From: Lutibacter profundi | Lineage (GTDB): Bacteria > Bacteroidota > Bacteroidia > Flavobacteriales > Flavobacteriaceae | Length of the DNA: 64,000 bases | Direction: 5' to 3' | Assembly (NCBI RefSeq): GCF_001543325.1 | Contig: NZ_CP013355.1 | Coordinates: 2,755,001-2,819,000 of the forward strand | In this document: positions 59,933-64,000 of the stretch, in pieces | Layout: every line of letters starts with the position of its first letter | How positions within the stretch are numbered: the first letter of the stretch is position 1 | Position numbers and translations under genes: made by a program | Notes under the pieces: model-generated | Database searches by the model: none | Told to the model about the DNA's origin: nothing | The model's input: only the letters and a program-made list of their open reading frames with translations

Positions 59933-60925
59933 TTATCTATGTTTTAAAAAAGGATAATCTTCTTGCTCGTATACAATATCGTACATTAATTGCTTATCTG
60001 GGTATGGAGATTCTTCTGCAAATTTTTGGCATTCAGCCACCTTCTCTTTAACCTCTTTATCCCATTCTTTTATTTCATTTTCAGATGCATATTTTTTCTT
60101 CTTGATAACATCTAAAACCTGTGTTATTGGATCAATTTTACGATATTCATCAACTTCATCTTTAGTCCTGTATTTTTGAGCATCACTCATTGAATGACCT
60201 CTATAGCGATATGTTTTTATATCTAATAACGTTGGTCCATCACCTCTTCTAGCACGTTCAATTGCTTCTTCCATAGCTTCAGCAACTTTCACAGGATTCA
60301 TTCCATCAACAGGCCCACAGGGCATTTCATATCCTAAACCTAATTTCCAAATATCTTCATGATTTGCTGTGCGTTCAACAGAAGTCCCCATAGCATAGCC
60401 ATTATTTTCACAGATGAAAACTACTGGTAATTTCCAGTTAATTGCCATATTGAAAGTTTCGTGTAAAGAACCTTGACGAGCAGCTCCGTCACCAAAATAG
60501 GTAAGTGTTACACCATCTCGTTCAAAATATTTATCAGCAAAAGCTAATCCAGCTCCTAATGGTATTTGACCTCCTACAATTCCATGACCACCATAAAAAT
60601 TATGTTCAGGTGAAAAAATATGCATAGAGCCACCCATACCATGAGAAGTACCAGTATCTTTCCCTAGTAATTCTGCCATAATTCGTTTGGGGTCAACTCC
60701 TAAACCAATAGGCTGTACGTGGTTACGATATGCGGTAATCATTTTATCGTTCTTTTTCATAGCGTGTAACGCACCTGCTAATACAGCTTCTTGCCCATTA
60801 TATAAATGTAGAAATCCTCTAATTTTTTGTTGAATATAAAGAGCTGCTAATTTGTCTTCAAATTTTCTCCAGAAGAGCATATCTTTGTACCAATTAATAT
60901 AGGTTTCTTTCGTAATTTTTTTCAT
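59933..60925 (-). CDS. pdhA: Pyruvate dehydrogenase E1 component, alpha subunit
   Basis: 330 residues. Thiamine diphosphate motif GDGAARQGSLHETFNMAINWKLPVVFICENNGYAMGT (Gly-Asp-Gly at about 165, Asn-Asn at about 194). Also RGFLHLYNGQEAV near the N-terminus, GHGIVGGQIPLGAGLAFA near 113, and YRYRGHSMSDAQKYRTKDEV near 243, the phosphorylation-loop region of E1-alpha. With E1-beta (not in the window) it decarboxylates pyruvate and acetylates the E2 lipoyl group. E2 starts at the next base. A -7 box lies at 60956-60963. Confidence 0.95.
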   Translation of the reverse strand: MKKITKETYINWYKDMLFWRKFEDKLAALYIQQKIRGFLHLYNGQEAVLAGALHAMKKNDKMITAYRNHVQPIGLGVDPKRIMAELLGKDTGTSHGMGGSMHIFSPEHNFYGGHGIVGGQIPLGAGLAFADKYFERDGVTLTYFGDGAARQGSLHETFNMAINWKLPVVFICENNGYAMGTSVERTANHEDIWKLGLGYEMPCGPVDGMNPVKVAEAMEEAIERARRGDGPTLLDIKTYRYRGHSMSDAQKYRTKDEVDEYRKIDPITQVLDVIKKKKYASENEIKEWDKEVKEKVAECQKFAEESPYPDKQLMYDIVYEQEDYPFLKHR

Positions 60926-60955
60926 CTATTATATAATATAAGATTTGTAGAATTG

Positions 60956-60963
60956 CAAAAGTA
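60956..60963 (-). promoter_or_regulatory. -7 promoter box of pdhA-pdhC
   Basis: Minus-strand TACTTTTG fits TAnnTTTG, 30 bp before the ATG. It places the start of transcription well inside the intergenic region, so the hairpin pair at 61186-61319 is not part of the pdhA leader. Confidence 0.55.
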
Positions 60964-61185
60964 CTGTTTTGAATTTTAGAATAAAAATAACTAGTATTTT
61001 TTTTACTACAATGTTTTCGTAGTGCTAAATGCTGAAAATTAAATTATTATTAATAACTTTATATGTTTTATTAATTTAATTATCATAAATATATTAAAAT
61101 AGTTGGTTTATTTTAGAAAATATTATTTTAGAAAAGTAAGCCTATAAATAAAAAAATTGAAAATCTATTCAGTTATAATGCTAAA

Positions 61186-61319
61186 GGTTAAAGCTATACT
61201 ACCGTTGTGGGGACGACAATTGCTTTAATTGCTTATACCTGATAGTTTTCTGGTTGTTGTTATTTGTAAAAGAATTACAATAATATTATACTACCGTTGT
61301 GGGGACGACAAATATTATT
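61186..61319 (+). ncRNA. Candidate structured RNA: two hairpins with an identical core
   Basis: A 25-nt core (TATACTACC-GTTGT-GGGG-ACGAC-AA) occurs at 61195-61219 and 61287-61311, same direction, 92 bp apart. Each copy lies inside its own outer stem of unrelated sequence: GGTTAAAGC/GCTTTAATT (61186-61194 with 61222-61230) and AATAATATT/AATATTATT (61279-61287 with 61311-61319). The inner stem GUUGU/ACGAC closes a GGGG loop. The U-G pair of the inner stem, and two G-U pairs of the first outer stem, work only in plus-strand RNA. No family was recognised; a DNA-binding or mobile-element origin is the alternative. Confidence 0.55.
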
Positions 61320-61347
61320 ACTTTTATTTAATTGCATAATTAGAAAA

Positions 61348-61379
61348 GAAAAGTCTCGAGATTTATCTCGAGACTTTTC
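61348..61379. terminator. Perfect 14-bp hairpin terminator
   Basis: GAAAAGTCTCGAGA (61348-61361) pairs with TCTCGAGACTTTTC (61366-61379) around a 4-nt loop. On the minus strand CTTTTCTTTTC follows gcvP (stop at 61407); on the plus strand it could also end a transcript of the hairpin element. Confidence 0.85.
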
Positions 61380-61406
61380 AATTTTAAAAGCTATTTTTTA
61401 TTTTAC

Positions 61407-64000
61407 TTATAAATAATCTTCAATAGGGTTGCAGGAACATACTAAATTTCTATCTCCAAAAGCATCATCAATTCTTCTGACTGAAGGCCAAAATTTGTTT
61501 TCTTTTAAGTAAGGGAGTGGAAAAGCAGCCTTTTGTCTTGTGTATGGGTAGTTCCATTCATTTGAAGTAAGCATCTCTTGCGTATGTGGCGCATTTTTTA
61601 GTACTGAGTTTGTGTCTCCACTTTTCATTTCATTTATTTCACTTTTGATAGCAATTAATGCATCGCAAAAACGATCCAATTCATTTTTATTTTCACTTTC
61701 TGTTGGTTCAATCATAAGTGTTCCATGCACAGGGAATGAAACTGTTGGTGCATGATATCCAAAGTCCATTAATCTTTTAGAAACGTCTGTCACATCAGCT
61801 CCTTTCTCTTTAAATTCCCTAAAATCAACAATCATTTCATGAGCGGCAAATCCATTTTCACCTGTATATAAAATTTTGTAATGTTTTTCTAATCGTGCTT
61901 TAATATAGTTAGCATTTAAAATAGCGTACTTGGTTGATTGTTTTAAGCCGTTTGCACCCAACATTCTAATGTAGCTATAAGATATTAGTAATACCAATGC
62001 AGACCCCCAAGGAGCAGATGAAATTGCAGTTGTAGCTTTTTCTCCTCCAGTAGGTATTATTGGGTTGGATGGTAAAAAAGGAACCAAATGTTTGGCTACA
62101 CAAATAGGACCAACACCTGGTCCGCCACCACCATGGGGAATAGCAAATGTTTTATGTAGGTTTAGATGGCAAACATCTGCGCCAATACTAGCAGGATTGG
62201 TTAAGCCTACTTGAGCATTCATATTTGCGCCATCCATATAAACTTGCCCGCCAAATTCATGAATAATTTTAGTAATTTCTTTTATTGAACTTTCAAAAAC
62301 TCCATGAGTTGAAGGGTATGTTACCATTAAAGCGCCTAAACTATCTTTATATAATTCTGCTTTTTCACGTAAATCATCTACGTCAATATTTCCTTTCTCT
62401 GTTGATTTTGTTACAACAACTTTAAACCCTGCCATTACAGCAGAAGCGGGGTTTGTTCCATGAGCTGAGGAAGGTATTAAACAAATATTTCTATGTTTAT
62501 TTCCTTTTGATTCATGAAAAGCTTTGATAACCGTTAAACCAGCGTATTCTCCTTGTGCACCAGAGTTTGGTTGTAATGATGTAGCTGCAAAGCCAGTAAT
62601 TTCATTGAGATAGGTTTCCAAATCTGTAATAACTTCTTGGTATCCTTGCGCTTGCTCAATTGGTACAAAAGGATGCATATTACCCCAATTTGGCCAACTC
62701 AACGGAAGCATTTCGGTTGCTGCGTTTAATTTCATGGTGCAAGAGCCCAAAGAAATCATAGAGTGTGTTAATGATAAATCTTTTAGCTCTAGTCTTTTAA
62801 TGTAGCGCATCATCTCAGTTTCTGAATGGTACTTTTTGAAAGTGTCATTTTCCATAAAAGGAGATTGCCTTGTTAAATTTTTAGGAATAGAATTTTCAGC
62901 TATTGAATTTGAACCTATATATTTTTTATCTTCTGCTTCTGCTAAAACGGAAATAATTTCATGAATGTCTTCTAAATTAGAGGTTTCATTGATTGAGATA
63001 CTCACCAAATTAGGTGAAGGATAGAAAAAGTTAATTTCTTTTTTTTCTGCTATTTCTTTAAGTTTTACAGTATTAGAAACTTCAATCGTTAAAGTATCAA
63101 AAAAGGCAGTATTTAATTGTTTTATATTTAATTGTTTTAATCCTTCGTTTAAGGTGGTAGTTAATTTCTGAATTTTACTTGCAATATAAATTAATCCCTT
63201 TGAGCCATGATAAACGCCGTACATACCAGCCATTACAGCCAATAATACCTGTGCAGTGCAAATGTTTGAAGTTGCTTTTTCTCGTTTTATATGCTGCTCA
63301 CGAGTTTGTAAAGCCATACGTAAAGCACGATTACCATCTTTATCATGTGAAACACCAATAATTCTTCCAGGTATTGCACGTTTGTAAGCTTCTTTAGTAG
63401 CAAAATAACCAGCATGAGGCCCGCCGTAACCCATTGGGATACCAAATCGTTGAGTAGTGCCTATTACAACATCAGCACCCCATTCTCCTGGAGGGGTTAA
63501 TATTGTTAGACTTAATAAATCTGCAGCTACAGCTATTTTTGCATCAACAACTTTTGCTTTGTTAATAAAAGTAGAATAATCATATATTTGACCATTTTTA
63601 GAAGGATATTGAATAAGTACTCCAAATACAACTGATGTGAATTCGAAATTTTGGTGGTTACCAAAAACTAATTCAATACCAAGTGGATAAGCTCTTGTTT
63701 TTAAAACATCAATGGTTTGTGGTAAAACTTCATTAGAAACAAAAAATTTAGTTGCATTTTCTTTTTTTTGGGCTCTTGTTCTTGAATTGAATAACATTAA
63801 CATAGCTTCAGCTGCTGCTGTACCTTCATCTAATAAGGAAGCATTTGCTAATTCCATTCCTGTAAGTTCCATTACCATTGTTTGGTAATTTAATAAGGCT
63901 TCTAATCTGCCTTGTGAAATTTCAGCTTGGTATGGGGTGTATGAAGTATACCATCCTGGGTTTTCAAGAATATTACGCTGTATTACTCCAGGTAAAATAG
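61407..64000 (-). CDS. gcvP: Glycine dehydrogenase (decarboxylating), P-protein, C-terminal part
   Basis: The frame is open from the stop at 61407 to the window edge, about 864 residues; the N-terminus lies outside. The residues upstream of the first internal ATG (63878) continue the family sequence ([26 protein letters not shown]), so that ATG is not the start. PLP-binding Lys is in [21 protein letters not shown], and other landmarks are [59 protein letters not shown] and SAPWGSA. The protein decarboxylates glycine and passes the aminomethyl group to the H-protein. Its lower end is marked by the hairpin at 61348-61379. Confidence 0.97.

Follow-up and report, generated by a model that had tools for sequence, protein, structure and literature searches.

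The CsrB/CsrC and RsmX/Y/Z RNAs are intergenic, carry one loop motif repeatedly on hairpins of variable stem sequence, end in a terminator and are encoded at several loci per genome. The motif in their hairpin loops is A(N)GGA, and CsrB and RsmZ titrate the protein CsrA. REP/RAYT repeats are likewise intergenic hairpins behind genes, with tandem copies and a CTAC/GTAG tetranucleotide by the stem; GTAG or GTGG stands at the 5' foot of the hairpin, and copies number dozens to hundreds. The attC sites of integrons form imperfect hairpins on the strand opposite the preceding gene, have RYYYAAC/GTTRRRY end boxes, and combine conserved arms with a changing centre. The Flavobacteriaceae have conserved structured small RNAs of their own; one of them, Rfp18, is widely conserved in Flavobacterium according to PMC9723704.

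Here we describe a hairpin element of Lutibacter profundi that has likenesses to each of these systems and differs from each. It lies in a window of 64,000 nucleotides (NZ_CP013355.1, 2,755,001 to 2,819,000, forward strand; the whole stretch of DNA analysed, numbered from its first letter), in the gap that separates gcvP from a pdhA-like gene. A preliminary description had reported an exact 25-nt direct repeat here, spaced by 92 bp, with flanks that differ between the copies and pair within each. The repeat is present on the plus strand as described, and both the letters and the folds bear out the pairing of the flanks. The parts of the site are as follows.

59933..60925, minus strand: pdhA-like gene (E1_dh), divergent from the unit
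61165..61379, plus strand: candidate RNA unit, made up of both core hairpins plus the terminator, with an approximate start; block and consensus structure kept in 16 genomes
61169..61242, plus strand: hairpin 1 with outer arms UCAG../..CUGA and UAUAAUGC/GCUUAUA, from a single-stretch fold
61188..61228, plus strand: hairpin 1 middle stem, TTAAAGC (61188-61194) with GCTTTAA (61222-61228), around core copy 1; from the letters, folds and RNAalifold
61195..61219, plus strand: core copy 1, TATACTACCGTTGTGGGGACGACAA; exact repeat, present genus-wide
61246..61347, plus strand: hairpin 2, outer arm UUUUCUGGUU (61246-61255) paired with AAUUAGAAAA (61338-61347); alignment helix 3
61279..61319, plus strand: hairpin 2 middle stem, AATAATATT (61279-61287) with AATATTATT (61311-61319), around core copy 2; from the letters, folds and alignment helix 5
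61287..61311, plus strand: core copy 2, same letters as copy 1; exact repeat
61348..61379, plus strand: terminator hairpin AAAAGTCTCGAGA..TCTCGAGACTTTT; from the letters, the inverted repeat and the alignment
61407..63998, minus strand: gcvP (GDC-P), 3' end facing the unit; the gene extends past the window end

Searched with a 22-nt core and at most three mismatches, the window contains exactly these two sites, and 100 shuffles contain none. In each module, a stem that is free in sequence leads to an asymmetric internal loop, where ACUAC(C/A) is conserved, and then to a short apical stem with near-invariant GUUGUGGGGACGAC. The CAG..CTG outer stem around hairpin 1 recurs at other sites; the outer part of this hairpin is absent from the RNAalifold structure of 16 aligned units. 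The terminator-like hairpin of the preliminary description indeed pairs perfectly over 14 bp around a loop of 4 nt, and 12 of its pairs are retained in 16 of 16 genomes, one by change on both sides. Its arms are A-rich and U-rich, and it could act on either strand. In one genome, a group II intron (L091:1342-1643, minus strand) lies 3' of the unit's terminator, on the same strand as the unit. Class C group II introns tend to insert behind terminators; the position would fit that habit, and we count it in favour of a terminator-ended RNA unit. No convincing promoter was seen upstream of the unit, where no -33 TTG stands out. By reading, an exact TATTTTTG lies upstream of 6 of the 16 units and is missing from the window's own; a flavobacterial promoter motif, TAnnTTTG, is named in PMC9723704.

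Our preferred reading is that a structured RNA some 215 nt long is encoded on the plus strand of the gap, with two modular hairpins and then an intrinsic terminator, and that a lineage-specific protein would recognize the hairpin module. We give this statement as a whole a probability of roughly 0.5. One part of it is considerably firmer: comparison between genomes makes it very probable that the element represents a real family of plus-strand structured RNA, at multiple sites, in Lutibacter and one other Flavobacteriaceae genus.

The family is apparently a new one, undescribed so far. At gathering score, Rfam 15 finds only three tRNAs in the window, in keeping with the initial failure to recognize a described family. 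With E values up to 10, the region 60900-61450 gives 12 matches, mostly on the terminator hairpin and none at gathering score; the best of these permissive matches is BSnc120 (E 0.00075, 26.4 bits against a cut-off of 114). Four further loci give no Rfam match at E 0.1. Titles and abstract openings of open-licence papers contain no description of the hairpin element that we could find.

Homologues with conserved pairing are present across the genus. Allowing at most three mismatches, we found the 23-nt core in 35 of 38 Lutibacter genomes, with 118 matches where the reversed pattern has 2, and in all 29 that are at least 90% complete and no more than 5% contaminated; the three genomes lacking it are incomplete (69, 87 and 86%). 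The L. profundi genome has four such places. A second scan of that genome at three mismatches returned the four known copies and two weak ones, one adjoining a known copy, compared with three matches for the reversed control; it revealed no weaker copies at gene starts that might serve as targets for a titrated regulator. A covariance model of 63 copies gives five matches in the same genome, one of them weak (the 63 were kept from 144, dropping those more than 90% alike to a kept copy, at an end or containing N).

In the GTDB collection, a 21-nt pattern with one free base matches 64 stretches titled Lutibacter, Flavobacteria, Flavobacteriia, Flavobacteriaceae or Bacteroidetes; three are Gelidibacter stretches of a single MAG. 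Of 299 family genomes the covariance model finds 4: three are Lutibacter and the fourth belongs to a second genus, hence 1 of 296 outside Lutibacter. In an order scan our own genome is the sole match among 296, with 0 of the 295 others; these scans are partly overlapping samples, and their stricter filters lose weak matches. This distribution differs from that of Rfp18, a comparison made by the description in PMC9723704 and not by sequence. Within that second Flavobacteriaceae genus, the hairpin is found in 9 of 14 genomes (E no more than 0.01).

In isolation each hairpin shows a modest gain in stability over shuffles (z -1.10 and -0.58), so the case for structure rests on comparison between genomes and not on folding energy; a 256-nt stretch that includes the terminator reaches z -5.32. 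For 24 aligned copies with CAG..CTG arms, RNAalifold gives a 9-bp outer stem, a 5-bp GUUGU/ACGAC apical stem and one isolated pair. In this set 97.3% of cells pair, which 0 of 500 shuffles achieve, and slid versions of the structure drop to 24-75% paired. Both sides have changed in 22 cells, compared with a shuffled mean of 6.5 (0 of 500). Two of the five measures give a weak result: doubly changed pairs number 5 (2.6 in shuffles, of which 5 in 500 get as far), and further pair types number 12 (11.2 in shuffles, of which 187 in 500 get as far). The double changes sit in the outer stem, the apical stem being almost invariant in this set. These statistics are valid for the main core type only, as the alignment holds 24 of 38 non-redundant CAG-armed copies and the 14 omitted by eye have mostly variant cores (for example ATCGTGGGGACGAC and GTTGTGGGAA). 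Over 280 units, the middle pair of the apical stem is U-G in 139, U-A in 84, C-G in 26, C-A in 15 and something else in 16.

For 16 aligned pdhA-gcvP units, the RNAalifold consensus contains the terminator, hairpin 2 and, except for the outermost arms, hairpin 1. The alignment takes in 16 of 18 site units, 15 of the 16 being distinct; L073, with one module, and L051, which did not fit the search expression, were left out. Changes on both sides affect 12 of 49 pairs, three of them in the outer-arm helix of hairpin 2, compared with 3.5 in shuffles; doubly changed cells number 24 compared with 6.4. On all five measures 0 of 500 shuffles do as well, although shuffle tests ignore the relatedness of the sequences and such fractions are not probabilities. 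Selection on the folded form, earlier argued from two copies in one genome, thus receives support from the comparison of 16 units. Paired arms that vary while pairing holds, around near-fixed loop and apical bases, are the signature of a recognition element. We set aside a coding reading of the core because third positions are conserved along with nearly all its other bases.

The inner stem is more complex than the GUUGU-GGGG-ACGAC originally drawn. RNAalifold chooses that register for copy 1 and for the family; for copy 2 it takes (C/A)GUU-GUGGG-GAC(G/U), so the loop is GGGG or GUGGG depending on the alignment. The copy 2 register covaries in the 16 units (A-U 9, C-G 6 and one A-G). Moreover, the minimum-energy fold of copy 1 alone, with 4 bp and a 5-nt loop, has the shape of the copy 2 register. 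Both registers may form.

Wobble pairs indicate which strand folds. Cells that read as G-U on one strand read as A-C on the other, and the 16-genome unit favours plus by 59 to 2. Among 280 units the apical stem has 207 cells that favour plus and 46 that favour minus, and among 133 units the outer arms have 126 and 21 respectively; this last tally covers 133 of 286 units selected on CAG/CTG plus Y/R at two further pairs, which makes pairs 2-4 invariant by construction. Consensus energies for plus and minus are -30.37 and -19.77 in one alignment and -11.2 and -1.49 in the other, and single-sequence energies favour plus in 16 of 16 site units and 21 of 24 aligned copies. A T-run (at least 6 T in 9 nt) stands at the stem end in 91 of 123 CAG..CTG-armed copies, and the mirror-image A-run before the stem in 61 of 123. 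We conclude from these sequence comparisons that the folded strand is plus, as the preliminary description had proposed.

Copies occupy fixed kinds of site, several per genome, a feature that goes beyond the preliminary description. The recurring settings of the strict set are the position behind an OmpA-type gene, the pdhA-gcvP tandem pair, the neighbourhood of a thioesterase gene and places at genes for CAP-domain lipoproteins. There is overlap among them, as a CAP gene often lies on the other side. Copy positions are conserved between species. The pdhA-gcvP unit, with two hairpins and a terminator in about 215 nt, is kept in 16 genomes, which agrees with the earlier idea of a unit resembling a small RNA; in L070 and L119 the tandem unit lies directly 3' of the OmpA-type gene and not beside pdhA. 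The setting behind an OmpA-type gene with PD40 repeats accounts for 42 distinct copies, which without exception share the gene's strand; for 25 the distance from the stop is 34-55 nt, for the others 74-497 nt. A mechanically called ORF lies downstream of 104 out of 110 distinct copies; 97 of these copies face its 3' end and 7 do not. Some tandem duplications take in gene ends. A variant element combines the same CAG..CTG arms with another core (ACCGTTGTGGGAA, GGT-like on the 3' side) at L038:354-424, L060:5349-5421, L117:2194-2265, L120:3773-3843 and near position 924 of L201 (minus strand), where it sits between a small ORF and the start of a CAP gene.

The T-runs, the orientation towards gene 3' ends and the position behind OmpA-type genes all suit another reading, in which each element is chiefly an intrinsic terminator or 3'-end structure, a long hairpin with a U-run where a gene ends, and its conserved loop only tunes termination or RNA decay. 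We regard this as unlikely. The window's own site has a separate terminator hairpin with a U-rich arm, so that the two modules are not needed for termination there, and elsewhere up to seven modules stand in a row. To our knowledge, ordinary terminators do not conserve loop sequence at such a level.

The same positions bear on whether the folded molecule could be DNA. A single-stranded DNA hairpin recognized by a transposase or recombinase, REP-like or attC-like and dispersed without regulatory function, would explain several intergenic copies per genome, their 3'-end orientation and the duplications that include gene ends, and G-T wobble is tolerated in folded DNA too. We nevertheless consider it improbable, to a degree well beyond the terminator reading. 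The own genome has just four strong copies, in positions conserved between species. We rejected REP/RAYT on this copy number, on synteny and on the transposase, which does not track the element: Y1_Tnp is found in 20 of 38 Lutibacter genomes (the own copy being partial with a stop) and the element in 35 of 38. The core also places its tetranucleotide differently from REP repeats, with GTAG 3' of the hairpin and not at its 5' foot; GGTAGT comes after the hairpin on the minus strand, and CTACC before it on the plus strand. Integron attC was rejected for want of end boxes, which 0 of 24 copies have on either strand, and the architecture is opposite, with a conserved centre and changing arms. We also rejected a mobile-element origin, since plasmids and phages searched with the 246-nt unit and viral contigs searched with an exact 18-mer gave no match. 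RNA would be the folded molecule, because a terminator and a unit resembling a small RNA are present.

The second feature beyond the preliminary description is a strong antisense tie to a locus encoding a CAP lipoprotein and a small ORF. CAP genes gave 71 matches in 35 of 38 Lutibacter genomes. A strict element lies within 1500 nt 3' of 35 of the 71 genes, always on the opposite strand, and 40 of 118 strict elements are CAP-linked by this limit; further CAP loci hold degenerate arrays such as TAAAACCGTTGTGGGGACAAC. With a weight matrix built from the units we found units within 1 kb 3' in 27 of 30 CAP loci (all but L172, L183 and L188), 79 antisense and 0 sense, with 1-7 modules in a row per locus; the 30 are those of the 71 matches with loci made, best-scoring first, and orthology inflates such counts. 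One unit lies 5' of a CAP gene. The matrix used gave 1 match of score at least 12 in 0.59 Mb of Markov-resampled sequence, and a first matrix gave 0 of score at least 8 in 0.9 Mb of shuffled sequence.

The small ORF follows the CAP gene within 500 nt, on the CAP strand, in 28 of 30 loci. Its product is mostly 47-62 aa long and has the pattern IYINTLxPxFxYxN; examples are G000:C1:2438972-2439148 and 362102-362269 in our own genome and L168:1247-1432 (minus strand). A third profile match in the own genome, G000:C1:2442237-2442338 (L204), lies between ORFs that read as purE-like and M3-peptidase-like, and G040 (L199) has a small ORF in the same neighbourhood. Among 199 family genomes the profile matched 4, of which two are Lutibacter and two come from other genera. 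In the loci of these two other genera we saw no unit, save one of score 9.4 inside a long ORF. By reading, L198 (G217), from another genus, has a CAP/small-ORF locus accompanied by a short direct repeat of its own, ACTAACCTT; it looks as if arrays recurred behind the locus with other sequences. One genome of the second hairpin genus (L163, G342) carries ACTACTGTTGTGGGGACAAC units in a tandem array, and the spacers between them are in part repeated too.

We considered the small-ORF product as the hairpin's binding partner and did not adopt it, because it has no family or fold match and was not found in the second hairpin genus. None of 41 members matches NCBIfam. Pfam gave contacts with Uma2 (0.0023) and HAT1_C (0.0029), for a single member in each case, and another scan touched S1_2 at 0.084, below cut-off; we take all of these as chance. 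A PDB search returned one chain at E 0.52. The structure model has low confidence (pLDDT 71.9, pTM 0.27), and a fold search with it found no match (best E 5.8). In the second genus 0 of 14 genomes have the product, an empty result that alone shows little, though the profile did match two other genera.

With 79 antisense units, no sense ones and a conserved small ORF on the CAP strand, control in cis comes to mind: an array RNA made towards the CAP/small-ORF operon would act by convergent transcription or antisense pairing. This too seems improbable, if slightly less so than folded DNA. Many copies end in a T-run ahead of the operon, and the second genus has the hairpin with no detectable small ORF. 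It also leaves unexplained those OmpA-linked sites that lie next to other genes, and the window's own site, where our searches gave neither a CAP gene nor a small ORF.

The least probable reading that we weighed, and a very remote one, makes the tandem hairpins a small-molecule aptamer or ribozyme with a pocket formed by the internal loop and the G-rich loop. Near-invariant unpaired bases around a short stem, the tandem layout and the neighbouring glycine cleavage gene gcvP would suit it. As a sense leader, though, the unit has no gene to precede: gcvP, which comes next in the plus direction, is encoded on the minus strand, and other sites have unrelated neighbours.

Changing stems around near-fixed loop bases, together with repetition of the module, point to recognition by a protein. 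By analogy, the Csr/Rsm RNAs would be the nearest working counterpart of the module arrays. The Lutibacter motif is nevertheless different, GUUGUGGGGACGAC with ACUACC where those RNAs have A(N)GGA in the loop, and CsrA was found in 0 of 38 Lutibacter genomes by a search whose control was positive in 3 of 14 genomes (E. coli, B. subtilis and T. maritima). On both grounds we rejected CsrA as the partner and membership of the Csr/Rsm group.

We infer that a lineage-specific RNA-binding protein would recognize the hairpin module. Multi-hairpin RNAs, if the modules of a site share one transcript (two modules in the pdhA-gcvP unit, one to seven behind CAP genes), could titrate this protein much as CsrB and RsmZ do CsrA. 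Single modules in terminator hairpins, such as those behind the OmpA-type gene, might mark or protect RNA 3' ends. Protein binding with titration is a tentative proposal, at somewhat less than even odds. More speculative, and on balance doubtful, is its extension to a Csr-like titration system that does without CsrA, in which a protein held by CAP arrays and free RNAs would link the CAP lipoprotein and the OmpA-type protein in one RNA regulon.

In Lutibacter, then, comparison between genomes strongly supports a structured RNA element that is genus-wide and unmatched in Rfam. One conserved module appears in three settings, as a unit resembling a small RNA, in terminator loops and in antisense arrays, and such use in several settings is unusual. 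The element has also brought to light a family of small proteins tied to CAP lipoproteins, with no trustworthy Pfam or NCBIfam match. We know of few RNA-binding regulators in the Flavobacteriaceae, and the 45-nt hairpin could lead to a new bacterial one.
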